Assembly (NCBI GenBank): GCA_009924135.1
Contig: RFSE01000026.1
Coordinates: 1-45,908 of the forward strand
DNA: 45,908 nt
Direction of reading: 5' to 3'
Source of the DNA: Pseudomonadota bacterium
GTDB taxonomy: Bacteria > Verrucomicrobiota > Verrucomicrobiia > Limisphaerales > SXTU01
Of this stretch, positions 8,556 through 32,700 are shown piece after piece. Each line of letters opens with the position of its first letter. Positions within the stretch are counted from its first letter, which is position 1. The notes beneath the pieces were generated by a model. That model did no database searches, had not been told where the DNA came from, and worked only from the letters and a program-made list of their open reading frames with translations. A program made the position numbers and the translations under genes.

Positions 8556-9365
8556 TCAGCCACGGGTCAGCAACACCAGAAACTCCTTGTTCCCCGCCGG
8601 TCCGAGCAACGGCGACTCCGTCACCCCGCGCCATGTGAGTGCTGAAAGCTCCGCCTTCACGAATGCTTCCAACTCGGCGAGCACACGTGCGTGGACCGCT
8701 GGGTCCGTGATGACGCCCTCGCCCTTGTCCGCTTCTTCCTTGCCCGCCTCGAACTGCGGTTTCACCAGCGCAACGATCTTACCGCCAGCAGCCAGTAGTC
8801 GCTCCGCTGCCGGCAGAATCTTCCGCAGCGAAATGAACGAACAGTCTATGACGATGAACGGCACAGAAAATGATTCTGACTCCTGACTCCTGACCCCTGA
8901 CTCCGCTGCTCTCATTCGCTCGGCGCTTAGCTCCCGCGCATTCGTTTTCTCCAGCACCACCACGCGCGGGTCGTTGCGCAACTTCCAGGCCAACTGCCCC
9001 TGCCCTACGTCCACGGCGAACACCCGAGCTGCCCCCCGTTGCAGCAGGCAGTCCGTGAATCCGCCGGTGGAAGCGCCCAGATCGATGGCCGTCAGCCCGC
9101 GTACCTCCACCGCGAAATGCTCCAGCGCGTGCTCCAGCTTGTGACCGCCCCGGCTCACGAACTTTTCCGTGGCGTCGAGCGTGACTGCATCGTCTTCGTG
9201 CACCACGTCACTGGCTTTGCGCGCGACCTGACCGTTTACGCGCACGAGGCCGGCCATCACGGCGCGTTTGGCCTTCTCGCGGCTGTCGCACAGCCCGCGC
9301 GCGACAAGCGCCTGGTCCAAACGCGCGTTCACGGGCAAGGAGGTTGGGCTGGATTCTTTGGCCAC
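8556..9365 (-). CDS. tlyA: TlyA-family rRNA 2'-O-ribose methyltransferase
   Basis: This is an S4-domain plus FtsJ-type methyltransferase. TlyA proteins methylate 2'-hydroxyls in 16S/23S rRNA. The S4 domain is at about residues 14-75 (RLDQALVARGLCDSREKA, VMAGLVRVNG). The SAM-binding loop AIDLGASTGGFTDCLLQRGA follows at about 94-113, then VFAVDVGQGQLAWKL and IVIDCSFISLRKILPA. It has 269 residues, as expected. The start GTG at 9365 lies inside the inverted-repeat element at 9358-9531; a second GTG at 9332, directly before NARLDQ, fits family starts better and may be the true one. A Ser/Glu-rich loop (ESGVRSQESESFSVP) is encoded by a heptamer repeat at 8876-8903. It is upstream of folC by 21 bp. 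Confidence 0.9.
   Translation of the reverse strand: MAKESSPTSLPVNARLDQALVARGLCDSREKAKRAVMAGLVRVNGQVARKASDVVHEDDAVTLDATEKFVSRGGHKLEHALEHFAVEVRGLTAIDLGASTGGFTDCLLQRGAARVFAVDVGQGQLAWKLRNDPRVVVLEKTNARELSAERMRAAESGVRSQESESFSVPFIVIDCSFISLRKILPAAERLLAAGGKIVALVKPQFEAGKEEADKGEGVITDPAVHARVLAELEAFVKAELSALTWRGVTESPLLGPAGNKEFLVLLTRG
8876..8903. repeat. Heptanucleotide tandem repeat inside tlyA
   Basis: Four copies of CTGACTC (third copy CTGACCC) lie in tandem within the tlyA frame and encode GVRSQESES on the minus strand. The unit begins with CTGA like the folC array 650 bp away but has a different remainder. It lies where related TlyA proteins have a short loop before the IDxSFISL motif. Confidence 0.85.
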
Positions 9366-9531
9366 AGATGAAACACAGATGGAACACAGATAACCGACAT
9401 GATCAGTGAAGCAGGCGGGCCCGAAAGCCCGGCCAACTGATCATCAGCCTTACCTTTTCCTGCCTTCCTGCTTTCCTGATTCATCCCGTTTCCCCATCTG
9501 TGCTTAATCTGTGTTTCATCTGTGGCCAAAA
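9358..9531. repeat. Composite inverted-repeat element, 11-bp-unit arms (copy 1)
   Basis: This element of about 174 bp fills the space between cobA-hemD and tlyA. The left arm (9358-9393) begins TTGGCCACAGATG and carries three tandem units of about 11 bp of the form ACAGATGRAAC. The right arm (9495-9531) is its imperfect reverse complement, ending CATCTGTGGCCAAAA. Between them lie a nested stem (ATGATCAGT with ACTGATCAT, enclosing CGGGC/GCCCG) and a run of 8-bp CCTGCTTT-like units at about 9456-9477. No ORF is present. A second member is at 32545-32700. It may act as a transcript hairpin or be a mobile palindromic unit; the function is unknown. Confidence 0.85.
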
Positions 9532-9536
9532 GCACC

Positions 9537-11051
9537 TCACCCCCGCAGCGCCGCGACGAGGCCGGGGATGTTGTGCTGCTTGGCCTCGATTGTCGGCTTT
9601 AGCCCGAGGGTGGTGAATGCCTTGGTCGTCTCCGGACCGATGCTCGCAGTCTTGAGTCCGGGGAACTTCTTCAGCAGCTCCGGCAGCGGGAAGCGCGCGT
9701 GAAAATTCTCCACCGCCGAACTGCTCGCAAACGTCAGCCAGTCCGCGCCTTCCTCGCGCAGCCGCGCGGCGGTTCCAGAAGCGTCGTCGGTTTCCGGCAC
9801 GGTCATGTACACGGCCACGTCATCCACGATGGCCCCCTGCTCTTCCAGCAACTGCGGCAGTTCGGGAGTCGCCACCTCGGCGCGCAGCAGCAGCACCCGG
9901 AGATTCTCCAGATCATCCTTTGCGGCAATCGCCTTGGCGATGTCCTTGGCCACGTACTTCTCCGGCATGGCGTCCACCGAGAGGTGCAGCTCTTTCAGTT
10001 TCGCCGCCGTGGCCGGACCAACGGCGGCGATGCGCAGGCAGCCCAGACCGCGAATGTCATCGAACGCCTTGAAGAAGTAATCGAAGAAGCACATGACGCC
10101 GTTCGGACTCGTGAAGACAATCCACTGATACGACCCAAGGCTGCCCATCGCCTCAGCCAGCACTTCGCGCTGCGTCGGAGCGGCGATCTTGATCGTCGGG
10201 ATCTCCAGCACGTCCGCACCGAGTTCGATCAATTGCCGGGACAGATCGCTCGCCTGTTCGCGCGTGCGCGTCACCACCACGCGTTTGCCGAAAAGCGGGC
10301 GTTGTTCAAACCAGTTCAGCTTCTTTCGCAGCTTGACCACGCCGCCGATGATCGTCACGGCCGGCGCGGTGAATTTCGCCTTCTCCACGACATCGGCGAT
10401 GGTCGCCAGCGTGCCCTCGATGCTCTGCTGCCGGCCCGTCGTGCCCCAGCGCACGAGCGCCACCGGCGTGTCCGCCGCCATGCCGTGCGCGATGAGCTGC
10501 TCGCCGATACGCCGGATGCGCTCGACGCCCATGAGCACGATCTTTGTGCCCGTGGACTTCGCCAGTTGCTCCCAGTCGATGCTGCTCTCGTCCTTCGTCG
10601 GGTCCTCGTGACCGGTGAGTACGGTGAAGCTGGAGCAGTGATCGCGGTGCGTGACGGGAATGCCCGCGTAGTTGGGCCCCGCATAGAATGACGACACGCC
10701 GGGCACCACCTCGAAGGGCACCTTAGCCGCCGCGAGTTCCTCGGCTTCCTCGCCGCCGCGCCCGAAAATGTAGGGATCGCCGCCCTTGAGCCGCACCACG
10801 GTTTGGCCGGCCTTGGCCTTGGTGACCAGGAGCTGGTTGAGTTCCTCCTGCGGGATGGCGTGCGCGGCGGCGCGCTTGCCGCCGTAGATGAACTCGGCGG
10901 ACTTCGGCGCCAGCCGCAACAGGTCAGGATTGACCAGTGCGTCATAAACCACCACGTCTGCGCGCGCCAGCAGTTCCGCCCCGCGCCGCGTGAGCAAACC
11001 CGCGTCGCCCGGCCCTGCCCCGACCAAATAAACTGTGCCCTTCTGCTTCAT
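9537..11051 (-). CDS. cobA-hemD: Uroporphyrinogen-III C-methyltransferase / uroporphyrinogen-III synthase fusion
   Basis: This is a bifunctional tetrapyrrole enzyme of 504 residues. Residues 1-245 are a SUMT domain: VYLVGAGPGDAGLLTRRG, the SAM-site loop RLKGGDPYIFGRGGEE, the VPGVSSFYAGPNYAGIPVTHR segment and ALVRWGTTGRQ. It would methylate uroporphyrinogen III to precorrin-2 for siroheme or cobalamin. Residues 255-504 form the HemD domain (RVVVTRTREQASDLSRQL, WIVFTSPNGVMCFF, AAVGPATAAKL, LTFASSSAVENF, IGPETTKAF), which closes hydroxymethylbilane to uroporphyrinogen III. Such fusions occur in Firmicutes and Verrucomicrobia. The start ATG 11051 directly precedes the SUMT core. Its product precursor comes from HemC at 31.5 kb, so the pathway is split in this window. 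The stop lies 6 bp from the repeat element at 9358-9531. Confidence 0.95.
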   Translation of the reverse strand: MKQKGTVYLVGAGPGDAGLLTRRGAELLARADVVVYDALVNPDLLRLAPKSAEFIYGGKRAAAHAIPQEELNQLLVTKAKAGQTVVRLKGGDPYIFGRGGEEAEELAAAKVPFEVVPGVSSFYAGPNYAGIPVTHRDHCSSFTVLTGHEDPTKDESSIDWEQLAKSTGTKIVLMGVERIRRIGEQLIAHGMAADTPVALVRWGTTGRQQSIEGTLATIADVVEKAKFTAPAVTIIGGVVKLRKKLNWFEQRPLFGKRVVVTRTREQASDLSRQLIELGADVLEIPTIKIAAPTQREVLAEAMGSLGSYQWIVFTSPNGVMCFFDYFFKAFDDIRGLGCLRIAAVGPATAAKLKELHLSVDAMPEKYVAKDIAKAIAAKDDLENLRVLLLRAEVATPELPQLLEEQGAIVDDVAVYMTVPETDDASGTAARLREEGADWLTFASSSAVENFHARFPLPELLKKFPGLKTASIGPETTKAFTTLGLKPTIEAKQHNIPGLVAALRG

Positions 11052-11111
11052 GTGCGCGCGACTGTAGAAGCGCGGCTAAAAAGCTCAAAGGCCAAAAGTG
11101 GCAGAACCATC

Positions 11112-11157
11112 CCGCGCTCCGGGGCCTCCGGACTCGCGCCAGCGTCCTGGAGTGCGG
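11112..11157. repeat. Imperfect hairpin between SDR gene and cobA-hemD
   Basis: CCGCGCTCC (11112-11120) pairs with GGAGTGCGG (11149-11157), 8 of 9 positions, around a GC-rich loop containing CTCGCGCCAGCGTCC. It occupies the 143-bp gap between two minus-strand genes. Sequences of this 'CGCCAGCGTCC...GGAGTGCGGCGG' type look like a dispersed repeat, but only one copy is seen here. It could also serve as a terminator-like stem, though the T-run is offset. Confidence 0.4.
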
Positions 11158-11194
11158 CGGTCCCCCGCCTCTTTTTCGATCACCCGACGACAAA

Positions 11195-11977
11195 CTACTT
11201 GATCCCGTGCGTGACACGGGGACCGATGGTGTGGCCGCCGTCCACGACGAGGGTCTGGCCGGTCACGAGGTCGGCGGAGATGAGGGCGAGGATGCCGTCG
11301 GCGATGTCCTCGGGCTGGCAGACCTTGCCGAGGACGGCGTGCCGGGCCTTGGCGTCCTTGGCGGCCTCGAAGTCTTCGCCGAGACCTTTGCGCAGCCATT
11401 CGCCGTCGATGAAGCCAGGGGCCACGGCGTTGACGCGGATGCTTGGCCCGAGGGTGCGGGCAAGGGCGAGGGTAAGGTTGATGACGGCGGCCTTCGAGGC
11501 GCAATAGGGAATGCTGCTGCCCGCGCCGGTGAGGCCGGCGACACTGGCGACATTGATGATGACCCCGTCACCGTTCGCAGCGAGGTGCGGGCGCGCGGCG
11601 CGGGCGCATTGAAACGGCCCTTTGAGATTCACCCCCATGATCCGATCCCAGTCGCCGTCGGTGACGGCATCAAGGTCGGGGAAGTTGATGAAGCGGGTGG
11701 TGCCGGCGTTGTTCACGAGCACGTCGAGACGGCCGAACTCACGGATGGCCATGGCCACCATGGCGCGGCATACGGTGTCGTCGGCCACACTGCCGGCGAA
11801 GCAGACGGCCTTGCCGCCCAGCGCGCGAACATCGGCTGCGGTACGCTCGGCCTCCTCGCGCGAAGAACTGTAATTGATGAGCACCCGACACCCACGCCGG
11901 GCGAGCGCGAGCGCAGTGGCGCGGCCCACGCCGCGAGAGGAACCGGTGACGATGGCAGCTTTGCCTGAGAGGTCCAT
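11195..11977 (-). CDS. SDR-family oxidoreductase, FabG-like
   Basis: This short-chain dehydrogenase/reductase of 260 residues has a complete classical set of motifs. The cofactor loop TGSSRGVGRA is at about 11-20, NNAG at about 88-91, the active Ser in INVASVAG, the catalytic Tyr-x3-Lys as YCASK at about 153-157, and the NAVAPGFIDGEW segment. The end ADLVTGQTLVVDGGHTI matches 3-oxoacyl-ACP reductase-like SDRs. The Arg pattern after the glycine loop and NYSSSREEAE suggest NADP(H). The true substrate cannot be told from sequence and no fatty-acid genes are adjacent. It is divergent from zwf across 231 bp. Confidence 0.88.
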   Translation of the reverse strand: MDLSGKAAIVTGSSRGVGRATALALARRGCRVLINYSSSREEAERTAADVRALGGKAVCFAGSVADDTVCRAMVAMAIREFGRLDVLVNNAGTTRFINFPDLDAVTDGDWDRIMGVNLKGPFQCARAARPHLAANGDGVIINVASVAGLTGAGSSIPYCASKAAVINLTLALARTLGPSIRVNAVAPGFIDGEWLRKGLGEDFEAAKDAKARHAVLGKVCQPEDIADGILALISADLVTGQTLVVDGGHTIGPRVTHGIK

Positions 11978-12075
11978 GGGCGAAGGGTTGCGGAGAGAAG
12001 GCCCGTTGAAAAGCTCGAATGAAGGCGGTCGATCCGCAAGATGACGCTTGCCACAGCGGTAGGACCAGGAAGGTA

Positions 12076-12087
12076 TTGCGATCGCAA
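12076..12087. promoter_or_regulatory. 12-bp perfect palindrome upstream of zwf
   Basis: TTGCGATCGCAA is a perfect palindrome in the divergent 231-bp region between the SDR gene and zwf, 121 bp before the zwf start. A TATATT hexamer follows about 20 bp downstream (12112 region) and could be a -10 box. An operator role for either gene is inference. The core GCGATCGC is also a common restriction or repeat octamer, so chance cannot be excluded. Confidence 0.3.
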
Positions 12088-12208
12088 GACCGTCACTGTG
12101 CTATATTTGATCGCCCCGCGCCCCCTTAGCCGACTCCGCGTGACGCCTCTCTCGCCGCCGGAGAAGGATTGATCTTTTCCCTCGCAGAGGTCCACCCTCG
12201 CCAACGTT

Positions 12209-13765
12209 ATGGACGACCTCAACCAACTGGATGAACTGATGGCATGCCGCCTGGACGACGGGCGCAAGGCTGTGACCCCCTGCACCATCGTCATCTTCGG
12301 CGCGAGCGGCGATCTCACGATCCGCAAACTCATCCCGGCGCTCTACCATCTCTTCGCGGAAAAGGCCTTGCCCAGTCCCCTGCGCATTGTGGGCTTCGCG
12401 CGGCGCGAGAAGGAAGACGCGGCGTGGCGCGACGAGTTAAAGGCCGGTGTGGCGCAGTTCAGCCGCACGAAGCAGGTGGACGAGGCGGTGTGGGCCGAGT
12501 TCGCAGGCAACGTGTCCTATTGCCAGGGCGATCTCACGGACCCGGCGGCTTACGCGCGGTTGACCGAGAAGCTCAATGCCTTCGGTGTGCCGGAGCTGCG
12601 CAAGAACCTGCTCTTCTATCTCGCCATTTCGCCGAGCCAGTTCGGGGACGTGGTGGAACAGCTTTCCCTGGCGACCCTGCTCAAACGCGAGGAAGTCCCC
12701 GGCGAGTGGCAGCGGGTGGTCGTCGAGAAGCCGTTCGGCACCGACCTGCCCAGTGCGCTGCGGCTCAACAACGAACTAACCAAGTTCGCCCACGAAAAAC
12801 AGATCTTCCGCATCGACCATTATCTCGGCAAGGAGACGGTGCAGAACATCCTGATGTTCCGCTTTTCAAACGCAATCTTCGAGCAGCTCTGGAACCGCAC
12901 CTCGGTGGATCACGTGCAGATCACGGTGTCCGAGAAGGTCGGCGTAGGCGGACGCGGCGGCTATTACGAGGAGTCCGGAGCGATGCGTGACATGGTGCAA
13001 AACCATTTATTGCAGGTGCTTTCGCTGATCGCCATGGAGCCGCCGGTCTCGCTCGAAGCCGAGGCCGTGCGCGACGAGAAGGTGAAGCTGCTCAAGTCCA
13101 TCCGCCCGGTGCGGGATGTGAGCAAGCAGGTGGTGCGGGGTCAGTATTTCGCCGGGATGGTGGACGGCAAGCTGCGTAACGGCTACCGGCAGGAGGAGAA
13201 GGTGAAGACTGATTCCAACACCGAGACCTACCTGGCACTGAAGCTGTTCATCGACAACTGGCGCTGGAGCGGTGTGCCTTTCTTCCTGCGGACCGGCAAA
13301 TCGCTGCCGCACTCGGCCAGCGAAGTACGCATCCAGTTCAAGCCCACCCCGAACGTGCTCTTCGCCGCGAAGTGCGGTCTGAAGCTGGACCCGAACGCAA
13401 TCACGCTGCGCCTCCAGCCAAATGAAGGCATCACCCTGCGCTTCAACGGCAAAGTGCCCGGTGCAAGCCTCCAGGTGCGTCCGGTGCGGATGCACTTCAG
13501 CTACGACGCGGAGTTCGGCGCTTATACCCCGGAGGCATACGAGCGGCTGCTGCTCGAAGCGGTCGCGGGCGATGCGACGCTCTTCATCCGGCGCGATGAA
13601 GTCGAAACGGCGTGGGGCATCGTGGACCCGATCCGAGAGGGCTGGGGTGACAAACCGCTGACCAACCGGGAGTTTTACTCGGCCGGGACGTGGGGCCCCG
13701 TGGCCGCCGAGGATTTGCTCGCCGCCAGTGGCCACGTGTGGCGCGACCCGCAGCCGATGAAGTAA
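12209..13765 (+). CDS. zwf: Glucose-6-phosphate 1-dehydrogenase
   Basis: This enzyme oxidises glucose-6-phosphate to 6-phosphogluconolactone with NADP, the entry to the oxidative pentose phosphate pathway. It has 518 residues. The nucleotide loop FGASGDLTIRKLIPALY is at about 31-47. VVEKPFGTDLPSAL and the active-site signature RIDHYLGKETVQN (His general base) follow. Further on come FSNAIFEQLWNR, the GYYEESGAMRDMVQNHLLQ block and WSGVPFFLRTGKSL. ATG 12209 leaves an N-terminal extension of about 28 residues before the loop, including an acidic MDDLNQLDELM; this is acceptable for the family. It is followed by pgl after 13 bp, forming a two-gene operon. Confidence 0.96.
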   Translation: MDDLNQLDELMACRLDDGRKAVTPCTIVIFGASGDLTIRKLIPALYHLFAEKALPSPLRIVGFARREKEDAAWRDELKAGVAQFSRTKQVDEAVWAEFAGNVSYCQGDLTDPAAYARLTEKLNAFGVPELRKNLLFYLAISPSQFGDVVEQLSLATLLKREEVPGEWQRVVVEKPFGTDLPSALRLNNELTKFAHEKQIFRIDHYLGKETVQNILMFRFSNAIFEQLWNRTSVDHVQITVSEKVGVGGRGGYYEESGAMRDMVQNHLLQVLSLIAMEPPVSLEAEAVRDEKVKLLKSIRPVRDVSKQVVRGQYFAGMVDGKLRNGYRQEEKVKTDSNTETYLALKLFIDNWRWSGVPFFLRTGKSLPHSASEVRIQFKPTPNVLFAAKCGLKLDPNAITLRLQPNEGITLRFNGKVPGASLQVRPVRMHFSYDAEFGAYTPEAYERLLLEAVAGDATLFIRRDEVETAWGIVDPIREGWGDKPLTNREFYSAGTWGPVAAEDLLAASGHVWRDPQPMK

Positions 13766-13778
13766 TTCCCCGCAAGCC

Positions 13779-14489
13779 ATGGCAAACCCGGAATTGAAGT
13801 CCTACCCCAGCGCAACGGCACTGGCCGAAGCCTGCGCGGGCGAGTTCCTGGCGTTCGTCGCGGTCTCAGCCGGGGCCGTCAGCGTGGCCGTTTCCGGCGG
13901 ACGGATTGCGAAGGATTTCTTCAGTGCTGTCGCCCGCCAGGCGAAAGCAAACGGCCAATCGCTAACCGAAGTTCATTTCTTCTGGGCCGATGAACGGTGT
14001 GTGCCGCCGGACGACGCCGAGAGCAACTACCGCAGCGCGGCAGAACTGCTCTTCGCTCCGCTGGGCCTGTCGGCAGGGAATATCCATCGCATTCGGGGCG
14101 AAGACGAACCAGCCGCCGCAGCAAACGCAGCCGAAGCGGAGTTGCGCTCTCTGGTAGCAATCAGCCCCTCCGGCCAACCAGTGCTGGATTTCGTGTTGCT
14201 TGGGATGGGCGAAGATGGGCATGTGGCATCGCTTTTTCCCGGTGAACCGGAGACCGTGATCCGCTCGGCAGCGGTCTATCGCCCGGTGACCGCAAGCAAG
14301 CCGCCGCCTCGTCGCATCTCACTGGGTTATGGAGCCATAGCCGCCGCCCGGGAAGTCTGGGTGCTGGCCTCCGGCGCGGGCAAGGAACTGGCGTTACGCG
14401 AGTCGCTCGCATCCGACGGAAGGAACCCGCTCGCACGTGTACTCCGGGAACGGGAACACACACAGGTGTTCACCGAACTGGTGCGGTGA
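13779..14489 (+). CDS. pgl: 6-phosphogluconolactonase
   Basis: It hydrolyses 6-phosphogluconolactone, the product of the gene just upstream. The 236 residues show the sugar-isomerase-like fold signatures: AVSGGRIAKDFF near residue 38, HFFWADERCVPPDDAESNY, GNIHRIRGED and the strongly conserved LGMGEDGHVASLFPG at about 145-159. The C-terminal VLASGAGKELALRES also matches. The 13-bp spacing to zwf suggests co-transcription. It is convergent with a small minus-strand gene that ends 6 bp downstream. Confidence 0.94.
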   Translation: MANPELKSYPSATALAEACAGEFLAFVAVSAGAVSVAVSGGRIAKDFFSAVARQAKANGQSLTEVHFFWADERCVPPDDAESNYRSAAELLFAPLGLSAGNIHRIRGEDEPAAAANAAEAELRSLVAISPSGQPVLDFVLLGMGEDGHVASLFPGEPETVIRSAAVYRPVTASKPPPRRISLGYGAIAAAREVWVLASGAGKELALRESLASDGRNPLARVLREREHTQVFTELVR

Positions 14490-14495
14490 TTGGCT

Positions 14496-14753
14496 TCAGT
14501 ACTGGACCTTCGCAGCGGGGTGGTCAGAGCGGATCCCCTTGCTGGATGAGATGAAGCCGAGCGTCAAAGCGCACGGCCGGTCTTCCTGCATGGAGTAGAT
14601 CACCACCCGCTCCAGTGTCAGTCCCGGCTGGGGATGAGAACAGATGTGCACCAGCTCTTCCAAGGTTTGAAATGGCAACGGCACCTCCACATACTCCGGG
14701 ACTCCCGTCCGGATAAATATAGCCTGCCCGATGGCATTGGAGGGAAGTGACAT
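14496..14753 (-). CDS. Small conserved-looking hypothetical protein
   Basis: This 85-residue product is not recognised. It starts at ATG 14753 and is rich in hydrophobic and Pro residues (VPEYVEVPLPFQTLEELVHIC, PGLTLERVVIYSM). It has no signal peptide, membrane helix or metal motif beyond two isolated Cys. The composition is balanced, and it lies 60 bp downstream of the large beta-propeller gene on the same strand, so it may be the last gene of that unit. It looks like a real gene because the opposite strand is empty here and the residue use is not low-complexity. No function is proposed. Confidence 0.6.
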   Translation of the reverse strand: MSLPSNAIGQAIFIRTGVPEYVEVPLPFQTLEELVHICSHPQPGLTLERVVIYSMQEDRPCALTLGFISSSKGIRSDHPAAKVQY

Positions 14754-14813
14754 CGCAGTGGCACATTAGGCCAAAACTGCGGGTTGAACAAGCACCAACC
14801 TGATGCGGTCTGG

Positions 14814-17800
14814 CTAAGGTAAAAGCACCAGCCGGTAGAATCGCCTGGTCTGACCAGTCACGCTGGTGTCGGTGAAGGTGGCTCCACCACCGGCCACCGT
14901 GTTGGTGACCACTGGGATCCAACTCACCAGATCACCGGAAACTTCCATGCGATACGACCGGCCGTTATCACCCAGAGCGGTCAATTGGAACAAACTACCC
15001 GGCTTGAAGGTCGAGGAACTGAACGAGAACGGCGAATAAACGGTGAGCGCAGAGTTGCTGCTCAATATCGAACCCAGCGGAGAACTGACGAGACAGGCAT
15101 AAGACCCGGAGTTGGTCAGCTGCAAATTCAGCAGGGTAAGCGTTGGATTGGTCTCCTGGCTCAAAGGTGTTCCATTGAGGCGCCATTGGAAGCTGAACGG
15201 CCCCGAACCCGTAGCGCCCACGGTGAAAACCACGTTCGTGCCGACGGGGAGCACCAGATCCGTGAGCTGTGGGGTGACGGTGAAAGGCGGGACCACGGTG
15301 AGCACGGCGTTGGAGCTGAATACTGAGGCGAGGGGGTTGGCCACAAGCACGTCATAATTGCCGGTGTTCGTGGTCTGCGCTCCAGTGATGCTGTAGCTGG
15401 CGTTGGTTGCGCCGGTGAGCGGTGTGCCGTTAAACCGCCACTGGAAGGTGAAAGGCGGCGCTCCCGCCACGGACACCATGAAAGTAACATTTGACCCGAT
15501 GGTTACCAGCTGACTCTGGGGTTGCGTGGTGACGGACGGAGGTGAGTTCACGAAGAGCGCAGCGTCCGTGCTGAAGTTCGTTCCGAACGGGTTGCTGACG
15601 CGCACGGAATACACGCCTGCGTTGGTCGTTTGCGCCGTGGACAACGTGAGCGTGGGATAAACGGCGGCGTCGATGTCGATGCCATTGAAACGCCACTGAT
15701 AGGCCACCGGCTGGGCAGCTTTCGCGGATATGCCCACATTGAAAGTTACGGTTGAACCCTGGGTCACGGTACGACCGCGGGGATTGGAGGTGATGGTGGG
15801 TTGGGCCAGCACGCCGCCTTGACCGAAGACCTGGTTGATGGCCGAAGGCGCGAGCCAGGCTCCCCGCCCCAGTGTCCCCACTACGAGAACGTCATCCGAC
15901 CGGTTGTATTCCATGGCGTAAACCGGCGCATTGGGCAGATTGCTGCCAACCTTTACCCAGTTGGTGTAGCTGGGAGCAGAAGCCGCGTACACGCCCATGT
16001 CGGTGCCCACGAGCACATAGGAAAGGATGTCCGCCGGGCCATGGCGAATGCAATGAAGCCGGCCTACGCCGGTGAGGGTGCCCGTGACATTGGTCCAAGA
16101 GGCACCCGAATTCGTGCTATAAAAGACGCTGCTCGAATTAATTGCAAAAACACTGGGCCAGTTGGTGGGGACCAAGGTGACGTCAATGGCGGACGTGCCG
16201 GGGATCACCGCCGGTGTTCGCAACAGTGCCCCGCCGCTGATGGTGCGAGCGTAAACACCACTGCGGCTCGCCACATAAAGCACATCGGGATTCGGGATGC
16301 CTTGAGCCGAGCCACCGTAGGCAAAACCGTTGCCACTGGTTTCGGTACCATCACCACCCACGATTCCAAGCCCGATTTCTGCCAGATTGTCGCCCTGATC
16401 AAAGGATTCATAGACGGAATTGGCGCCTGCGATGACGAGCCGTTGAGGTACCAACGAGTTAAGCCTTATCGGGGTTACGAACTGGGGCTGGAACGCGTTG
16501 TTATTCCCCACATTCATACCAACTGTCGCATTGCTCAAGACCACGCCATTGGCATTGTAAGTACGCCGGCTGAACAGGCCCAAGTCATCAAAACTGGAGT
16601 ACACGATGGCAAAACCAGGGGCGCTGGAGTTGTCCACCAGCACGGCCCCACCGTCGCCCGTAGTAATGGCAGTCCAGATGGGGTTGTTTGCGGAGTTCTG
16701 CCGCGGAGTGCCATTGTCCTGCGAACCCGCAATTAAAACGTGGTTGAGGCTGTCGTAGGCGATGCTGTGGAACTCCCCTACTTGCAATGTCCCGTTCAGG
16801 GAAAACCAGTCACCCGTGTTATCCCCGGGGCTGGAGCGGCGATACACACCGCCATCGCAGACATAAAGCAGGGTCCCATTGAGGTCAAAGGTCATGCCCC
16901 GCGAATCCGCGTGTGGGGCAGAATTATTGGCCGTACCACCGCCACTCGCACCCGCAGAGCTGGAATGAGTCAAATGAACCCACTGGTTGCCGGTGGGTTT
17001 CGACGCATCACCGCGGAAAGCCCGCCCGGTGAAATCGTTGGCCCCGATGCCGTTCGGAAAGCCTCCCGAATCGTTGAAGCCTTGAGGCTGCCGGTCACCG
17101 GAGATGTAAACCACACTGGCGTTCAGCGGATCAGCGGCCAAGGCAAAATGGATGGCCCCCTGCCCTCCAGGGTGGATCCCCACCGGCCCGCTGCCGGCCA
17201 AACCGGTTTCCAAAGAGGTGGGCAAATCCATGGCCGTCCAAGTCGCCCCCCCGTCTACCGACTGAAACACTCCGCCCAGCACCCCATTGGTCACAATACC
17301 GACGAAAAGCGAACCGGCGGCGCTCGCGGCGATCTTGATGTTGTCAGGTGAACTGGCGAGCAAACCGTCAATCGTGGCGTCACTGATCTTGGTCCAATTC
17401 GCGCCAGTATTGATGGTGGCAAATATCCCGACGTTTGTGCCGCCACCGTAGATTCCAGTGTAGAGCACGGCGTTATTGGTGGGGTTGGCAGCCAGCGTCC
17501 GGGCGGTACCAATAGGCAGACCACGGGCACCGCCCGAGATGAGCTGGAAGGTCGCGCCAGAATCCGTACTGCGGAAGACACCGCGCACTGTGCCCCCGTC
17601 GGAGGTCACAATAATTTTGTTGGCGCGAGCAGCCACCCCGCTGACGTTGACGCCCGTAAGGGTCCCGTTCCCGTTCAACTCAATCCAAGTGTTCCCCCCG
17701 TCGGTCGAACGCAGGATGCCGGTGCGAGCCCCGCCCGCCGAACCCAAACTGCTGTAGCGGCCAATACCCGCCACCAACGTATTGAGCGTGAAATCAAAGG

Positions 17801-18176
17801 GGTCGAATTCCAAAGAACTGATCGACAAAGAAGTGTTGGTATCCGTGAGCGGCGTCCATGTCGGGCTGCCGCTCGGATCGGTGGCATTCAAGGTGCGCCA
17901 GATGCCGCCGTTGACGGCACCGATAAACAAAATACTTGGATTGCTGGGATGGGCTGCGATGGCTTGAATGCAGCCATTAACCTCTCCATTAAGGATGCCC
18001 TCCACCTGACCGTTGCGCGTGGGGGCGGAACCTTGCGGCACCCAGATGCTGCCGCCGACCGGCGCGGGTGCGGCCGTGAGCAATCGCGAAGACGCGCTGA
18101 TGGCAATCAGCAGCAGGATCAGCCGGGAGCTGACCCACCAACCAAAGTGACTGTTCGTTGTTTTGCCGGCTTGCAT
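14814..18176 (-). CDS. Secreted BNR/sortilin-like beta-propeller protein with three Ig-like domains
   Basis: This exported protein has 1120 residues from ATG 18176. The frame stays open another 94 codons upstream, but that part lies over purQ and is a shadow. The signal region is at about 15-43 ([20 protein letters not shown]). Residues 60-760 hold many BNR/Asp-box-like units ([44 protein letters not shown]), as in sortilin/VPS10-type propellers. Three Ig-like repeats with [14 protein letters not shown] cores and [22 protein letters not shown] ends cover about 780-1055. The last 65 residues ([18 protein letters not shown]) are a tail often found on verrucomicrobial exported proteins. The ligand is unknown; surface binding or matrix function is inferred. 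Confidence 0.85.
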
Positions 18177-20564: not shown

Positions 20565-20753
20565 GTTTGAACCACAAAGACACAAAGGACACAAAGAAGC
20601 GCATAAGAGGGTTGGCGGTTCTAAACGGAGAGGCTGGCTGTGGGCCGCACTCAATAAACCGCCCGCGTGGGTTGGACCACGCCTGCGCCCCAGGTTGATT
20701 TCATTTCGTTTCCTGCCCCTTCTTTGTGTTCTTCGTGCCTTTGTGGTTCAAAC
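20565..20753. repeat. Composite inverted-repeat element, 9-bp-unit arms
   Basis: A 35-bp left arm (20565-20599), GTTTGAACCACAAAGACACA and onward, is built of ACACAAAGG-type 9-bp units. The right arm (20719-20753) is its near-perfect reverse complement, ending TTGTGGTTCAAAC. The interior of about 120 bp contains a small stem GCGTGG/CCACGC. It lies in the 413-bp gap (20464-20876) between the BSP gene and the DUF1501 gene; nothing else is seen there except presumed promoters. An orphan right arm of the same family is at 25767-25797. Confidence 0.85.
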
Positions 20754-23137: not shown

Positions 23138-23181
23138 GCATCCTACTTAACCGCATCGACGAGCCGTTTTCAACCCGCTAT

Positions 23182-25644: not shown

Positions 25645-25766
25645 GCGCCGACGCAGGTGGTTCTCAAAGCAGCGAAGGGGACGGCGAGAGAACGCGCTCA
25701 ACTTACCCGGCCACGCCGTTTTGGGTGTCCTCAGCGACCTGCCATAGTCCCAATTTTTCCTTGGCC

Positions 25767-25797
25767 CCTTCGTGCTCTTGGTGCCTTTGTGGTTTCA
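25767..25797. repeat. Orphan right arm of the 9-bp-unit repeat family
   Basis: The sequence CCTTCGTGCTCTTGGTGCCT followed by TTGTGGTTTCA closely matches the right arm at 20719-20753. No matching left arm is seen in the 120 bp upstream (25645-25766), so this is a solo or decayed copy between the DUF1549 gene and the DUF4337 gene. Confidence 0.7.
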
Positions 25798-25803
25798 TCT
25801 GAA

Positions 25804-26403: not shown

Positions 26404-26844
26404 GGTCTTGATCTGGTGAACCCAGCCTAAGCACGCCAAGGGCGGGCCTCAAGCGCCGTTCTGACCATGGAGAGCAATGCCCCGCACCGCTCTAGCCTCT
26501 GCGGCTTCTCGTCTCTGGGGTTTTCACATACACAAATGAGCACCGCAGAGACGGGACCAGCACCGAGGATAGGAAAAAGACCGTTTCCCCATCGAAATCC
26601 AGCTTCTGGGTCTTGGCCTGGCACTGTGCCGGAAAGCTTGGATCTTAAATCATTCCTGTCGCCCTTTAATCCGCGAATCTTTCTGCCCAAGAATCAGTTT
26701 CTGGAAGGCTCCTGAAAGAGTGGCGGAGTCACATTCGAGCCACCCTTGACGTGGGCACGCCCTAAAACTAGCTTCCGGGGGTCCAACATCTGTTCGTCCC
26801 GCTGCCAAGTATCAGCGGGGAGTGGGTGTCATTGGTTGTTGTGC
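26404..26844. other. 441-bp gene-free region with a degenerate palindromic repeat
   Basis: There is no convincing gene here. At 26497-26554, CTCTGCGG and CGTCTCTG are repeated as their complements CCGCAGAG and CAGAGACG after a spacer of about 25 bp. This indicates a decayed inverted element of the 'GCAGAGACG' kind. The rest, including the AT-richer stretch at 26640-26720 (TTAAATCATTCCTGTCGCCC), has no clear element. The region must contain the promoters of the divergent DUF4337 and CotH genes, but no strong -35/-10 pair stands out. Confidence 0.4.
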
Positions 26845-29800
26845 ATGAAACATCATCCTGAGGGCTGGCTGGCCGGAGTGCGACATTGGCTTGTTGCGCT
26901 GGGGGTGGTCGTGCTCACGCTCTGTGCCCGCGCGGATCAAGTGCTCTTGAGCAAGATCATGTACCACCCGGTCGCGGAGCTGCCGGAATACGTCGAGATC
27001 TACAACAATACTGCCAACGCAGTCGATATTGCCGACTGGCGGCTCAAAGGGAGTGCCGAGTACAAGTTTCCTGCTTTCAACCCGGCGGACCCGATGGCGA
27101 GCTGGATGCGTCCGTTTGAGCGCATCGTGATTTCCATGTCCGATGCGAAAACCACGCGGGATGCCTACAAGATTGCCGCCAACATCCGCGTGCTCGGGCC
27201 CTGGGTGGGGCGGCTCAACAAACAAGGAGACCGGTTAAAACTGTTGAACAAAAACGGCCTGGCCATGTCCTCGGTGAAGTATCTTGACCGTGCGCCCTGG
27301 CCAGCGGCCGCCGATGGCGGCGGCCACGCACTGGTCGTGAAGAATCCGGATCACAAGATCGACGACTGGCGAAATTGGACCGTCAGCAGCAAGCCAGGTG
27401 GAGCACCCGGGACCGAGTCGGGTTCCGCGAACGAGATTCCGGTGGGCAATCCGGAACTGATTACGCAGTCAGGAGAAACGGTGGTGGTGGATTACGATTC
27501 TCAATGGGCGGTCACCACGGGTGTGGAATTGACACAGACGCAGTGGAAGGAACTCCTGTTTCCTGACCGGAACTGGACGCGTGGCCCGGGTCTGTTTGGG
27601 TTTGGTCCCGCCAAATTGCCGCCTCCGGGCATCCGGACACCGGTCCGGGCGGGCTTCATTACCTACTACCTGCGGCATGTGTTCATCTACAATGGGGCAC
27701 CGGGCGCGCAGATCTCGGTGGATGCCATCGTGGATGACGGTGCGGTTTTTTACCTGAACAATCAGGAAGTTGGCCGCGTGGGCATGCCTGGGGGCCCGGT
27801 TAGCGCCAAAACGCCGGCCGGCCGCAACGTCGGCGATGCCATCGAGGAGAAGAATGTCTTTCAAATCAACCCGGCCGTTCTCGTACGGGGCACCAACGTC
27901 CTTGCGGTCGAGGTCCACCAGTTCCCCGGGGGGCAGGCCCCGGACCTGGCGTTTGGCATGAAGCTGAAGGTGAAGGCGGCCGGCGCAGCGCAGGCCCGCT
28001 CACTGCTGATCAACGAGGTGTTTCCCGGTGCCCAAGGCGTCAATTTCATCGAGTTCTTCAATTCCGGAGCCACGGTTGTCAACCTCAAGGGACATTTCTT
28101 GCTGCCCGCCGCACCGTCCGCCCTTCCGCCGCAAGCCAAGCGGTATCAGATTCAACAGGACCTGGTAATCAAACCGAAAAGTTTCGGCATTCTGGACATG
28201 ATCGATGCTGGCGTGTGGCCCAAGCAACCGGTCGTCGCCTATTTGGTGGCCCCGGACGGACAGACGGTTCTGCACGCCATCAGCGCCGTGGTGCCCACCG
28301 ACGGACGCTCGCTCGGACAGCGACCGGACGGGAGCGGCCAGTGGTATTACCTTGCGCAACCCACACCCGATGCAGCCAATTCGAAGCAATCCGGCCTCGT
28401 AGGCACCCTCAAACTCAACGAAGTACATCTGGCGAAAAATGGTACGGTGGACTGGGTGGAAATCTACAATGCCACCACGAATCGTTTGTTGCTCAACGGT
28501 TACTTTCTCTCCGGAAGGTCTGGTTTTGGCGACAAGGTCGGGCTCAGTGGTGAGCTGCCGCCCAAAGGCATCAAATCGTTCGATGTTTCCTTTCCTGCCA
28601 GTGCCGGGGTGCTGAGCGTCTTTCTGGTCTCCCCGGAGAAAATTGTGTCCGATGCGCGTAATTTCCAGATCTCCCGTCACGGGGAGTTCTTCTCCGCGTT
28701 CCCCGACGGAAGCAGCGAATGGTATGTCGGCACCAAGGACACGCGCAATGCGCCCAATGCGCCCGTGCGTAACACCGACGTGGTCATCAACGAGATCATG
28801 TACAAGCCGCCGGTCACCCAGGAAAGCAGCGAGTTTGTCGAGCTGTTCAACCGTGGTGAAAAGATGGTGGACCTCTCTGGCTGGGCGCTGACCGGGGGCA
28901 TTGATTACAGTTTCCCTCCGGGGACCAGGCTCAAAGCCGGGGACTACATCGTCGTGGCCGCCGATGCCGCGCTGTTACGCTCGATCCATGGCAACATCAA
29001 CGTGCTGGGCAACTACGCCGGCAAGTTGAACAACGAAGGGGATTTGCTGCGCTTGCTGGACGCCCAGGGCAATCTGGTCAATGAGGTGGACTACAAGCCG
29101 GGCGGCGACTGGCCGGCGCTCGCGCACGGTGGGGGCAGCAGCATGGAGTTGATAAATCCCTTCATGGACAACCGGTTGGCCTCCGCGTGGCGGGACAGTG
29201 ACGAATCCGCCAAGCCTAAGTTCAAGAGTTACTATGCTTCTGGCGTTTATGAATCGAACGCCCTGCTCACTCCGATTCTACCGACGGACATCAACGAACT
29301 GCACTTTTATCTGGTGAGTGCCGGCCACACGATCCTGGACAACGTACAAATCCGGAAGAATGGCGAGGGCTCCAACCTCATTCTGAACGGAAAGAAAATG
29401 TCCACCAACGGCGTCAGCGAAAGTGGCTGGCTCGCCCAGGGAACGCACTGGGCCACGCACATCAAGGACGGACAGCTCCACATCGTCTCCGACGGACGCG
29501 GGGACAACCGGGCCAACCGGGTGGAAATCGATGCTCCCAACCTGCGCAAAGGAGACAAGTACGAAATCCGGTTCGACGCCAAGTGGGTGTCCGGCACCCC
29601 GCGCCTTATCTGCCATACGTGGGATTACAGCCTGTGCCCGTCCTTCCTGATCGAAGTCCCGCCCAATCTGGGGACTCCCGGCAAGCCCAACTCGCGCCGG
29701 ATTAATTCTCCCGCCGCACAGGTCGACAACCTGGCGCACAGCCCGGCCGTGCCCCGTTCCACGGACACGGTCAAGGTCACGGCCCAGGTGCGCGCGCCCG

Positions 29801-31416
29801 GTGCCGGGGGCGCGACTGTCCAGTTGTTTCACCGGCTGGACAACGAGAACGGCAACGGACAATGGAACAGCAAGCCGATGACGAGCATGGGCGATGGCAC
29901 CTACATGGCCTTGCTGCCGGAATACAAGACCATCGGCGACATCGTGCAATTCTACGTGCGGGCCAGTTCACCAGGTGGAGACAGCATGATCCCACGGGGC
30001 GGAGCCACCCGGCCGGCCATGTTCATCGTGGATGATCAGGTGATTACCCGCGACCTTCGCTTTGAGCGCTTCGTCATTTCTGCCTATGACATCGGAGCAA
30101 TGCTCGGAGGCAACACGAACAAGTACAACTTCAAGTTTCCCCGTCTGAACAACCATTATTTCAACGCCACCTTTATCAACAATGAGCAGGACGTTTACTA
30201 CAATGCCGAACTCCACAACAGCGGCAGCGGTTACACGCGCGGCGGCCTGGATCGTGGAAAATGGAAGTTGCCGCTGGATCGTTTGTTCCGGGAGCATCGG
30301 AAGCTGACTTACGACAACGACCCGGATGGCCAGGCCCGGCACCATAACCGGCTCGTCCGCTACTGGCTGTATCTTCTGGGAGAGCCGGTCAACGAGAACG
30401 AATTCGTGCGGGTCATCCTCAACAAGAACCCTTCCATGCTGCGTGAGGAGACCGAACCGGTTTCCAATGACTATCTCAAGCGCGTCTGGAAGCACGGCAC
30501 GCAGGGCAAACTCTACCGGCCCGAGTTTACGTGGTGGTTCCGGGATGATTGGACGGGAGGCTCTCCCATTGGCCCGACCTTCGAATACAAAGGCAGTGAC
30601 GATCCCCGGCTCTACCGCCATGTGTGGATGAAACGCACCCGTGAGGCCGAGGATGACTACACGGATTTGACGTCGTTTTTCAAGCTGATGTCCGAGAATC
30701 AGTACACGCAAAAGCAGATCGAGGCCGTGCTCGATCCGGAAGCAGTCCTGAAACACGCCGCAGCACGCGGCTACAGTGCGGACTGGGACACCTTCACCAT
30801 GGGCGGCACGCACAACGCCCTGTTCTACCACCGGCTGGACGGGCGGTTTCAATTCATGCACTGGGACAGCGACCAGGGCTTCCAGGCTGCGGGCATACCG
30901 GGACGGTTTTACGGCGGGCCGATTCAGGCGTGGTTGGAGAAACCTTACAACAAACGGCTCTTTTACTATTACCTGGTGGAGCTGTTGGAGAACTACACGC
31001 ACAACTCGCCGCGCATCAACGCGTGGATGAAGGCCGAAGCTGAAGCCAGCACGGCCATCAACGTGGAAACCAAGCTCTACCGCGACTTTTTCGTCGGCCG
31101 GCAGGCAGCCGCGTTGAAGCTCATGGGTGACAACTACAAGCTCGATTACAAAATCACCACCAACGGAGGCCAGCCCATGAATGCGGACACGTTGACGGTA
31201 AATATTGAGGGCCAGTCCCCTTATGGCATCTACAGTGTGGTCATCGACGGCCAGCCTCGGGCCAAAGTGGAATGGCTGGACGACGTGAAATGGCGCATGA
31301 ACAACATCGGCCTCAGCCCCGGCACCAATGACCTGGTGTTGCGCGGCGTCGATCAATGGGGCAACACCAAGCGCGACGCCAAGATTACGGTCATCCGGGC
31401 AGCCAGCGCCAAGTGA
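26845..31416 (+). CDS. Giant lamin-tail / CotH kinase-family exported protein
   Basis: The protein has 1523 residues from ATG 26845; an open extension to 26746 has Cys/Ser/Arg shadow composition. The signal peptide is at about 12-31 (VRHWLVALGVVVLTLCARA). Lamin-tail (LTD) domains recur: LSKIMYHPVAELPEYVEIYN at about 36-55, INEVFPGAQGVNFIEFFNSG, LNEVHLAKNGTVDWVEIYNA, and INEIMYKPPVTQESSEFVEL near 650. A beta-sandwich with AIVDDGAVFYLNNQEVGR lies near 300. The C-terminal CotH region at about 1070-1420 contains RGGLDRGKWKLPLDRLF, RLVRYWLYLLGEPVNENEFV and FQFMHWDSDQGF, the last matching the Asp-containing metal loop of CotH kinases. CotH phosphorylates spore-coat proteins in Bacillus; here the target is unknown and kinase activity is inferred. 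Confidence 0.88.
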   Translation: MKHHPEGWLAGVRHWLVALGVVVLTLCARADQVLLSKIMYHPVAELPEYVEIYNNTANAVDIADWRLKGSAEYKFPAFNPADPMASWMRPFERIVISMSDAKTTRDAYKIAANIRVLGPWVGRLNKQGDRLKLLNKNGLAMSSVKYLDRAPWPAAADGGGHALVVKNPDHKIDDWRNWTVSSKPGGAPGTESGSANEIPVGNPELITQSGETVVVDYDSQWAVTTGVELTQTQWKELLFPDRNWTRGPGLFGFGPAKLPPPGIRTPVRAGFITYYLRHVFIYNGAPGAQISVDAIVDDGAVFYLNNQEVGRVGMPGGPVSAKTPAGRNVGDAIEEKNVFQINPAVLVRGTNVLAVEVHQFPGGQAPDLAFGMKLKVKAAGAAQARSLLINEVFPGAQGVNFIEFFNSGATVVNLKGHFLLPAAPSALPPQAKRYQIQQDLVIKPKSFGILDMIDAGVWPKQPVVAYLVAPDGQTVLHAISAVVPTDGRSLGQRPDGSGQWYYLAQPTPDAANSKQSGLVGTLKLNEVHLAKNGTVDWVEIYNATTNRLLLNGYFLSGRSGFGDKVGLSGELPPKGIKSFDVSFPASAGVLSVFLVSPEKIVSDARNFQISRHGEFFSAFPDGSSEWYVGTKDTRNAPNAPVRNTDVVINEIMYKPPVTQESSEFVELFNRGEKMVDLSGWALTGGIDYSFPPGTRLKAGDYIVVAADAALLRSIHGNINVLGNYAGKLNNEGDLLRLLDAQGNLVNEVDYKPGGDWPALAHGGGSSMELINPFMDNRLASAWRDSDESAKPKFKSYYASGVYESNALLTPILPTDINELHFYLVSAGHTILDNVQIRKNGEGSNLILNGKKMSTNGVSESGWLAQGTHWATHIKDGQLHIVSDGRGDNRANRVEIDAPNLRKGDKYEIRFDAKWVSGTPRLICHTWDYSLCPSFLIEVPPNLGTPGKPNSRRINSPAAQVDNLAHSPAVPRSTDTVKVTAQVRAPGAGGATVQLFHRLDNENGNGQWNSKPMTSMGDGTYMALLPEYKTIGDIVQFYVRASSPGGDSMIPRGGATRPAMFIVDDQVITRDLRFERFVISAYDIGAMLGGNTNKYNFKFPRLNNHYFNATFINNEQDVYYNAELHNSGSGYTRGGLDRGKWKLPLDRLFREHRKLTYDNDPDGQARHHNRLVRYWLYLLGEPVNENEFVRVILNKNPSMLREETEPVSNDYLKRVWKHGTQGKLYRPEFTWWFRDDWTGGSPIGPTFEYKGSDDPRLYRHVWMKRTREAEDDYTDLTSFFKLMSENQYTQKQIEAVLDPEAVLKHAAARGYSADWDTFTMGGTHNALFYHRLDGRFQFMHWDSDQGFQAAGIPGRFYGGPIQAWLEKPYNKRLFYYYLVELLENYTHNSPRINAWMKAEAEASTAINVETKLYRDFFVGRQAAALKLMGDNYKLDYKITTNGGQPMNADTLTVNIEGQSPYGIYSVVIDGQPRAKVEWLDDVKWRMNNIGLSPGTNDLVLRGVDQWGNTKRDAKITVIRAASAK

Positions 31417-31510
31417 TGCCTGGAGAGCGGTTTTCGCTCCGCTTCACCGTCGGTCGGGCCGGTACCGCTGAGAGGGCATATACCGCACCAGGTTCCGGTC
31501 GCGGGCTGGA

Positions 31511-32539
31511 TCAGCCCTTCCGCAGTTCCGCTGCCACCTGCTCACCCAGTTGTTCCGGCTCCTGGGATTTCCGCCGGGCTTCGGCATGCTTGGCCGAGCC
31601 GTCCAGAAAGGAGATCACGCGCAACCGGAGCTGGTGGCCGAGCACCTCCGCGTAGGCCGCGACCGGACTCGCGCAGCCGCCGCCCATCGCCCGGAGAAAG
31701 GCCCGCTCGGCCCGCACGCACAGGTGCGTGTTCCCATGGTTCAGTTTGTCCAGCACCGGGGTGATCCGGTCATCGCCGGCACGCACTTCGATGCCCACGG
31801 CGGCCTGGCCCACGGCGGGGAGCATTTCCTCGGGTTCCAACCGAATGGCGAGCAGGCCTGCCGGCACGCCTTCCCCACTGAGCGAGCCGTTGGTGAGGAT
31901 GGCGAACTTCAGCCGTTGCAATCCGGCTGCCGCAAGCAAGGTGGCATCGAAATCGTTTTGCTCGGCGAGTTTACGCAGGCGGGTGGGTACGTTGCCGCGT
32001 ATCTCCACGATCTGGGCGTCCGGCCGGGCGACCAGCATTTGAGCGCGGCGGCGGGTGCTGCTCGTGGCCACGGTCACCCCATGCGGAAGGTCCTTGAGCT
32101 TAAGGTGGGCCTTGAAGCCCCGGCGTTCCTTTTGCCCGGGGACCCATTCCGTCGTGGTTTGCCGGGCAGCTTCCGCCTGGACAAACTTCGCATCGCGATA
32201 AACCAGCACATCGCGCACATCAGCACGTTTGCCCACCGCCCCGAGCACGAGACCGGCTGGCAGTTCGGTGGGGAGATCCTTGAGGCTGTGAACGGCAAGA
32301 TCGGCTTCACCGTTGAGCAAGGCCACTTCCAGTTCCTTGGTGAACAATCCCTTGGGCAACGAGGCGTCAGGGTTGGACAGTGAAGCGGTCTGCAGCTTGT
32401 CCCCCGTCGTCTTGATGACGTTCAGCTCGAATGTGAGGCGCGGGAACGCGGCGCGGCACTGGGCGAGGACAGCATTGGCCTGCGCCAGAGCGAGGGCACT
32501 GCCACGGGTGGCGATGATGATAGGGCGTGGGGTGGACAT
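31511..32539 (-). CDS. hemC: Hydroxymethylbilane synthase (porphobilinogen deaminase)
   Basis: It polymerises four porphobilinogens to hydroxymethylbilane. The 342-residue product starts at ATG 32539 (MSTPRPIIIATRGSALALAQ). A GTG four codons upstream lies in the repeat element and is not preferred. Visible motifs are IKTTGDK, LFTKELEVALLNGEADLAVHSLKDLPTELP, ATSSTRRRAQML, EIRGNVPTRLRKL and the cofactor loop GGGCASPVAAYAEV with the dipyrromethane-binding Cys. A loop near 130-150 (TEWVPGQKERRGFKAHLKLK) is longer than in enterobacterial HemC. It belongs to the minus-strand unit ccsA-hemA-hemC and supplies HemD at 9.5 kb. Confidence 0.95.
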   Translation of the reverse strand: MSTPRPIIIATRGSALALAQANAVLAQCRAAFPRLTFELNVIKTTGDKLQTASLSNPDASLPKGLFTKELEVALLNGEADLAVHSLKDLPTELPAGLVLGAVGKRADVRDVLVYRDAKFVQAEAARQTTTEWVPGQKERRGFKAHLKLKDLPHGVTVATSSTRRRAQMLVARPDAQIVEIRGNVPTRLRKLAEQNDFDATLLAAAGLQRLKFAILTNGSLSGEGVPAGLLAIRLEPEEMLPAVGQAAVGIEVRAGDDRITPVLDKLNHGNTHLCVRAERAFLRAMGGGCASPVAAYAEVLGHQLRLRVISFLDGSAKHAEARRKSQEPEQLGEQVAAELRKG

Positions 32540-32544
32540 GTTTT

Positions 32545-32700
32545 TAGCCACAGATGGAACACCGATGGAATACAGACATTAGAGAATCAGGAAGGCAGGA
32601 AGGCAGGAAAGGATCCCGATCGCGTTGACGACTCAACGAGCTGCTTTCCTGCTTTCCGAATTCAAATCTGTGTTTCATCTGTGTTCATCTGTGGCCAAAA
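32545..32700. repeat. Composite inverted-repeat element, 11-bp-unit arms (copy 2)
   Basis: This second member of the family at 9358-9531 fills the hemA-hemC gap. The left arm (32545-32578) begins TAGCCACAGATGGAACACCG; the right arm (32664-32700) reads as its inverted partner and ends TCATCTGTGGCCAAAA. Inner arms are 8-bp units: AGGAAGGC-type at 32585-32612 and TGCTTTCC-type at 32641-32657. A central stem CGTTGA-CGAC-TCAACG follows. So there are three nested palindromic layers and no ORF. Its left edge lies 5 bp from the hemC ATG and its right edge 5 bp from the hemA stop. Confidence 0.87.

Follow-up and report, generated by a model that had tools for sequence, protein, structure and literature searches.

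What are the layered palindromes that occupy two gene junctions in a contig of an SXTU01 bacterium (Verrucomicrobiota; Limisphaerales), and how did they come to lie there? The stretch in question, contig RFSE01000026.1 of assembly GCA_009924135.1, was analysed over its whole 45,908 nt (the window) and belongs, as contig C169, to a draft genome of 6.68 Mb, here called G000. An earlier note, made from the letters alone, had pointed out two palindromes of the same plan between tetrapyrrole or RNA-modification genes, and had suggested either a non-autonomous mobile palindrome or a large RNA hairpin. We find that the two elements are probably gene-less, non-autonomous copies of mobile elements that carry a gene for a GxxExxY-type nuclease (PF13366), and that this nuclease is predicted to move them. 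Both palindromes are present, with bounds at 9357-9530 and 32541-32701, and their parts are as follows.

9357-9530, no strand assigned: element 1, whole palindrome, between cobA-hemD (9537-11051, reverse strand) and tlyA (to about 9332-9365, reverse strand)
9357-9391, forward strand: left outer arm of element 1, three CACAGAT cores (spacing 11 and 11)
9400-9443, no strand assigned: central hairpin of element 1, TGATCAGT...ACTGATCA
9456-9482, reverse strand: inner array of 8-bp words of element 1, with CAGGAA cores, its left partner decayed
9496-9530, reverse strand: right outer arm of element 1, three cores
32541-32701, no strand assigned: element 2, whole palindrome, filling the spacer between hemA (32706-33764, reverse strand) and hemC (31511-32551, reverse strand)
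32541-32578, forward strand: left outer arm of element 2
32584-32610, forward strand: inner left CAGGAAGG array of element 2
32641-32657, reverse strand: inner right array of element 2 (CTGCTTTCCTGCTTTCC)
32665-32701, reverse strand: right outer arm of element 2

Each outer arm consists of three CACAGAT cores and 3-4 mostly purine linker bases; since the cores are joined by 3-4 bases, the arms have a period of 10 or 11 bp. In element 1 the outer arms are 35 nt each, lie 104 nt apart and are 91% complementary. In the interior of both elements, CAGGAA cores separated by 2-base linkers (8-bp units) accompany a short and unique hairpin; that of element 1 had no second occurrence when G000 was searched with the whole element as query. 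The 8-bp inner layer was thought to be common to both elements: in element 2 there are indeed arrays on both sides, but in element 1 only one side (9456-9482) shows the layer clearly. In the window CACAGATGRAACACAGATG (up to three mismatches) has six matches and AGGCAGGAAGGCAGGAA has four, all inside elements 1 and 2 (0.01 and 0.20 expected from shuffles). NCBIfam confirmed the neighbouring genes as hemA, hemC, cobA-hemD, and tlyA, and neither element has an open reading frame (ORF) of its own, as the earlier note had it, although the longest tlyA and hemC frames (to 9365 and 32551, respectively) enter the element ends.

The two spacers belong to a large family. With element 1 as query, at least 85 matches were found in G000 at an E of 0.001 or better (40 of 134 candidates scored), and a 19-base pattern with up to two mismatches matched 73 times (reversed control, 0). 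We parsed 56 distinct two-armed copies from the G000 DNA read, so the possibility of a chance similarity of two lone spacers falls away. The word pattern matches 10 of the 11 genomes of the genus (1 to 93 times each), 3 of 19 further genomes of the order, and 2 of 288 in a phylum sample, one of them G000; the related word CACAGAG was matched in 10 of 146 genomes of the order, and the control gave 0 throughout. The pattern also matches 45 times in a planctomycete record (RYN_440, 10.1 Mb), where both arms are found in 14 of 20 stretches read, 11 of which are visibly alike with arm starts 187-199 bp apart; there, arms of the CACAGAT pattern bound one uniform element. On either side of the RYN_440 element (L278-L297) lie larger inverted sequences of the GTTAACGGCGTAG type, as though it sat inside a further repeat. 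In G000 the CACAGAT family is one among many word families: palindromes of all words numbered 84 after merging in 795 kb of the largest contigs (0 in an order-1 Markov control), and 107 with a looser threshold and the window added (1 in the control), 89 of them intergenic.

A candidate for the mover lies inside one of the copies. At locus L044 of G000 the CACAGAT arms are 388 bp apart and the loop contains a 134-aa ORF, whose product is a PD-(D/E)XK nuclease (PF13366, PDDEXK_3; Pfam E of 1e-37) of the type annotated in other records as “GxxExxY protein.” PF13366 has 27 matches in 9 of the 11 genomes of the genus. We examined 13 of these 27 loci, scoring arms against the maximum of 50 shuffles, and found that inverted word arms enclose 12 of the 13 genes; only 2 of 165 control genes (300-750 nt) reach the same arm score (Fisher p = 8e-16). 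The arm words are CACAGAT (L044, L393), CACGGAT (L386, L391, L394), CACAGAG (L385), and CAGGAAAG (L388, where a palindrome of the inner-layer type flanks the nuclease gene), with further loci of the CAGGATTAA, ACGCGGATG, CGCGAAGGC, CACTAACCGG, and CACAAAA types; thus, the outer and the inner words of the window elements both flank nuclease genes. Inverted CACAGAT or CACGGAT arms bound gene-less palindromes as well as five examined nuclease-bearing units. For example, L044 (in G000) and L393 (in the congener G008) share 77% identity over 456 bp, from arm to arm, with unmatched flanks; L391 and L394 share 85% over 662 bp, and because this similarity extends into the flanks they represent one inherited site. 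The predicted protein starts at L044, L393, and L385 are read from the repeat arm (MNTDGTQMG, MNHRDTENTE; the former are the first residues of the L044 ORF, encoded by the arm), which is a warning for annotators that predicted protein starts can derive from such arms. Outside the genus, CACAAAG/CACGAAG words lie on both sides of a GxxExxY gene in a viral contig (L401, by eye), and ACACGGATTCG on both sides of one in a Treponema plasmid, with a score below control.

We propose that the nuclease would recognise the repeated cores, or their hairpin, and cut, and that repair would copy the unit into a new place; gene-less copies would have lost the gene and been moved in trans. New copies would survive where both adjacent reading frames are spared, and many copies would fill the stop-to-start junctions of co-directional genes because survivors spare both frames; copies in such junctions would be transcribed as long hairpins. 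Of 27 palindromes with clearly periodic arms, 9 leave a spacer of 30 bp or less once they are taken out, and such spacers make up 1.5% of spacer bases (p = 1e-10). The loop of an old hairpin may take a second insertion and so give rise to layers; in the window, a CAGGAAGG-word element would thus lie within one of CACAGATG words. The elements resemble miniature inverted-repeat transposable elements (MITEs; PMC10969869, from the part of its text available): they are short, without coding capacity, bounded by inverted terminal repeats and dispersed in many copies, and their ends are those of gene-bearing elements (L044 and L393 for CACAGAT; L386, L391, and L394 for CACGGAT). They differ from MITEs in having ends built from arrays of 7-11 bp words, which change from copy to copy, and in a partner that is not a known transposase.

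Mobility is also suggested by presence and absence between congeners. We compared 1.18 Mb of G004, the closest congener with a large overlap: its cobA-hemD/tlyA junction is 3 bp long and lacks the 200-bp interval that carries element 1 in G000, and presence/absence is seen also at L059 and other loci. At L050 part of one arm end survives in G004, apparently as the result of a loss. Among 115 orthologous adjacent gene pairs (G000 loci enriched for elements; palindrome score of at least 14), 6 are occupied in both genomes, 22 in G000 only, none in G004 only, and 87 in neither, counts in which gains and losses are not polarised. The hemA-hemC junction was comparable in 10 genomes: a palindrome is found in G000, G007, G008, G009, and G010 and a decayed one in G004, with CACAGAT arm words in G000, G008, and G009 and CACGGAT in G007 and G010, and the spacer is only 22-28 bp in G002, G003, G005, and G006. 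The many copies, this patchy occupancy and the nuclease gene inside the same arms elsewhere together favour the mobile palindrome of the earlier note.

The other suggestion, that of an RNA hairpin, would make these spacers intercistronic hairpins under selection, e.g., RNase III sites that separate or stabilise messages, with mobility incidental. Both spacers lie inside co-directional gene pairs and fold very stably (z of -10.6 for element 1 and -9.9 for element 2, against 200 shuffles each), the 6 of 115 junctions occupied in both genomes agree with it, and intervening sequences of 23S rRNA are hairpins excised by RNase III (PMC4990558, in the portion of the text available). Orientation points the same way: of 27 clearly periodic palindromes (3 of the CCCTC type were dropped), 23 lie in co-directional spacers, 4 in convergent and none in divergent ones, while 17% of element-free spacers, and 23% of their bases, are divergent (P = 0.007 and 0.0008). 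But avoidance of promoters alone would yield an equal bias, 4 of the 10 genomes have no element at hemA-hemC, and one further element of the window, missed by the periodicity filter, does lie between divergent genes:

20565-20753, no strand assigned: related palindrome of CACAAAG words, same plan with another word, between divergent genes; absent from G004

Selection on the hairpin appears to us a distinctly unlikely account of the family, although the hairpins may play some part in mRNA processing. Rho-independent terminators were ruled out, since A and not T follows the stems on both strands, and no known structured RNA was found, with no match in the window at the Rfam gathering score.

REP (repetitive extragenic palindromic) sequences are 20-40 bp long with a single hairpin and are linked to REP-associated tyrosine transposases (RAYTs), unlike the window elements. 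They resemble these as dispersed intergenic palindromes (PMC3733652, text seen in part), so we asked whether REP or bacterial interspersed mosaic elements moved by a RAYT (Y1) transposase account for the family. Matches to Y1_Tnp do occur in 8 of the 11 genomes, but G001, G004, and G009 have none and yet contain 7, 22, and 37 word matches, whereas G003 and G005, with full-length Y1_Tnp matches, contain only 1 and 4. Since the presence of Y1_Tnp does not follow the word matches, and the unit structure is unlike that of REP, a RAYT was rejected as the mover and this origin is very improbable. Element 1 had no match in plasmid and phage collections; together with the Rfam and Y1_Tnp results, this agrees with the earlier view that the elements are not a known insertion sequence or REP.

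A second protein family sits in the same architecture. PF05635, a four-helix-bundle family, has 69 matches in 10 of the 11 genomes of the genus, and palindromes of mostly 7-bp words hold these genes: the enclosing arms exceed control at 21 of 25 examined loci, compared with 3 of 196 other genes (p = 2e-22). Three control genes scored at least 14: one at L219 that has a CACAGAT element on each side; a GxxExxY gene (L190:4878-5298); and, at L186:7077-7449, a 123-aa ORF that has no Pfam match and whose surrounding palindrome is made of TAATTAGT words. The last is a possible third cargo, as its G004 palindrome is short and gene-less. Arms above control were also found for 16 of 19 plasmid genes (19 of 29 matching records) from Cyanobacteriota, Gemmatimonadota, and Alphaproteobacteria, and for 32 of 38 distinct loci in IMG/VR viral contigs; several loci of the PF05635 sets are orthologues or near-duplicates (e.g., L299/L316, L185/L308/L313, L309/L312, and L324/L325). 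The arm words vary between copies, and none of the best-scoring arms listed for the 25, 19, and 38 loci contains CACAGAT, so PF05635 was rejected as a direct partner of these words and forms a parallel class. The protein matches PDB 2GSC and TIGR02436. At one junction, L135 in G004 and L303 in G000, the four-helix-bundle genes are distantly related and the arm words are AAAGGCA and GTGAAAA, which suggests replacement and re-use of one site rather than change in place. In cyanobacterial plasmids (L320, L329, L333, and L318), arm-bounded four-helix-bundle genes interrupt gene pairs: cas6/cas4 (Pseudanabaena, Anabaena), cas10/cmr3 (Picosynechococcus), and the ribonucleotide reductase subunits (Nostoc).

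In the window, too, we observed palindromes of 7-bp words, at 33771-33877 (GAATTGC type) and 41297-41379 (AAAAGGC type), whose words by eye resemble the arms round PF05635 genes at L305 and L135. A lone CACAAAG/CACCAAG/CACGAAG arm lies next to a convergent gene pair at 25768-25794, with no obvious partner arm.

Several observations weigh against movement by the nuclease. We infer this role, and movement itself was never observed. No GxxExxY remnant was found in the loops of 55 of the 56 copies (the 56th is L044 itself), and the number of PF13366 matches does not correlate with that of CACAGAT words across the 11 genomes (Spearman 0.17, p = 0.62); in G004 and G009 the words are matched but PF13366 is not (drafts, 92 and 80% complete). 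The exception among the 13 loci, L166, has CAGGAAGG words on a single side (the whole interval is absent from G004), among 6 GxxExxY loci on plasmids only 2 exceed control (Bernardetia, CACAGAG; Sphingomonas, CGCGAAG), and 4 of the 25 PF05635 loci in the genus fall below it (L299, L300, L302, and L190b). No consistent target-site duplication emerged from the G000/G004 comparison, possibly a further difference from MITEs; the tlyA, L059, and L050 sites show 0-2 bp of overlap, and GAGCCA may be repeated at L059. In most copies the loops are unrelated, a pattern that simple whole-copy transposition does not predict, and the occurrence of the unrelated PF05635 protein in the same architecture means that the protein may be cargo.

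The last two points fit better with a palindrome that itself spreads or regrows, by hairpin-primed copying, slippage or template switching, with nuclease and four-helix-bundle genes as interchangeable cargo. Such a process handles the unique loops, the in-step arm words and the two unrelated proteins better than movement by the nuclease does. Words vary between copies, yet the arms of one copy agree (mean identity 0.85 with the own partner arm in 15 copies vs. 0.77 between orthologous arms in 26 comparisons of hand-picked arms), and words differ in 5 of the 6 junctions occupied in both G000 and G004 (e.g., CACAGAT vs. CACAGAG at the orthologous L177 junction). But the two ranges of identity overlap, own-arm identity reaching down to 0.62; the L135/L303 genes are distant, which suggests replacement; and the CACGGAT subfamily and the L044/L393 pair spread whole, with loop or gene. 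Loops are mostly dissimilar between copies, CAGGAA words excepted (on both loop sides in 17 of 56 copies, on at least one side in 25); in the CACGGAT-arm subfamily, however, at least six loci have a common loop (84-92% identity over 23-83 bp), and this subfamily therefore spread as whole units. We regard a self-propagating palindrome as unlikely overall.

The arms of one copy do co-vary, as the earlier note had expected of a true family, in that their unit spacing matches. Among the copies parsed, the first-gap spacing in the left/right arm was 10/10, 10/11, 11/10, and 11/11 in 23, 8, 7, and 17 copies (Fisher p = 0.0012), and the second-gap spacing, in the same order, in 8, 3, 0, and 34 (p = 8e-7). 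Descent of whole subfamilies could explain this agreement as well as a pairing constraint. Helical phasing was rejected as the cause of the 10-11 bp spacing, since other classes have 7-9 bp.

The earlier note had taken the layered unit sizes as one plan; we replaced this by nesting of separate elements, because the inner CAGGAAGG layer also exists alone (L186:5097-5177, L193, and L203). An intermediate is seen at L189, where a CACAGAG-type palindrome contains CAGGAA words and these a third palindrome; the innermost is missing from G004, which has the outer parts. Element 2 is therefore likely to be a nested insertion, and element 1 a partly decayed case, as far as their layout tells.

Two other repeat families were seen. 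A separate 135-210 bp repeat with CCGGAGCGCGGCTGTGTC arms has several copies (L186:8423-8633, L180, L181, L203, L205, L208, and L210), and at L186 the empty site of G004 suggests a duplication of ~9 bp (TCAAAGCTG). A ~136 bp family with TTCTCCCTCACCCCGGCCCTCTCCC arms (L192, L206, L208, L211, L218, and L189) is found both on its own and as the innermost part of a nested palindrome.

Cyanobacterial short tandemly repeated repetitive (STRR) and heptamer repeats are short intergenic word arrays. The papers cited in this paragraph are compared on the parts of their texts that were available. The GGGAATC repeats of Xanthomonas and Nostoc are likewise intergenic short-word arrays, with 70 and 75 convergent (inverted) pairs in Xanthomonas (PMC4692102); no link of STRR or GGGAATC repeats to a protein gene is made there (“four helix” and “S23” are absent from the available text), whereas in the present analysis such arrays enclose PF05635 genes from Nostoc, Calothrix, and others. 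The TAACTGA repeats of Beggiatoaceae, heptamer arrays by gene starts with a patchy distribution across phyla (PMC4679880), differ in being mostly direct rather than inverted, and no gene partner is named in the text covered. The intervening sequences of 23S rRNA are small hairpin-bounded elements with a PF05635 (S23p/IVP) ORF in the loop and a sporadic distribution (PMC4990558), as in the four-helix-bundle class here; they differ in lying inside rRNA genes, while our elements lie between protein genes, have arms of tandem words, and in the window class are associated with PF13366. PF05635 has been described as resembling Avd of diversity-generating retroelements (PMC10053308), and the protein found here has weak, below-cut-off matches to bAvd and DivGenRetAVD. 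Gene-less palindromes with a gene-bearing partner are thus a known kind. What is new is the combination of arms with copy-specific words and two partner families: no description of word arms linked to GxxExxY or PF05635 genes was found among the matches listed in the open-licence literature, as far as those texts were available, and the exact repeat-word strings had no match in that literature.

Short intergenic word repeats in many bacterial genomes lack a source, and GxxExxY nucleases and four-helix-bundle orphans are widely annotated without function; a countable association in several phyla joins the odd spacers and the orphan genes in one testable mobile-element hypothesis. We tentatively suggest that both may belong to a so far unrecognised class of minimal mobile elements found across phyla, whose ends are defined by structure (inverted, copy-specific 6-11 bp words), with a GxxExxY or IVP/Avd-like gene in the loop and with gene-less relatives. 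If true, this would give a role to two large orphan protein families and would account for short word repeats in cyanobacteria, Xanthomonas, and many uncultured bacteria.

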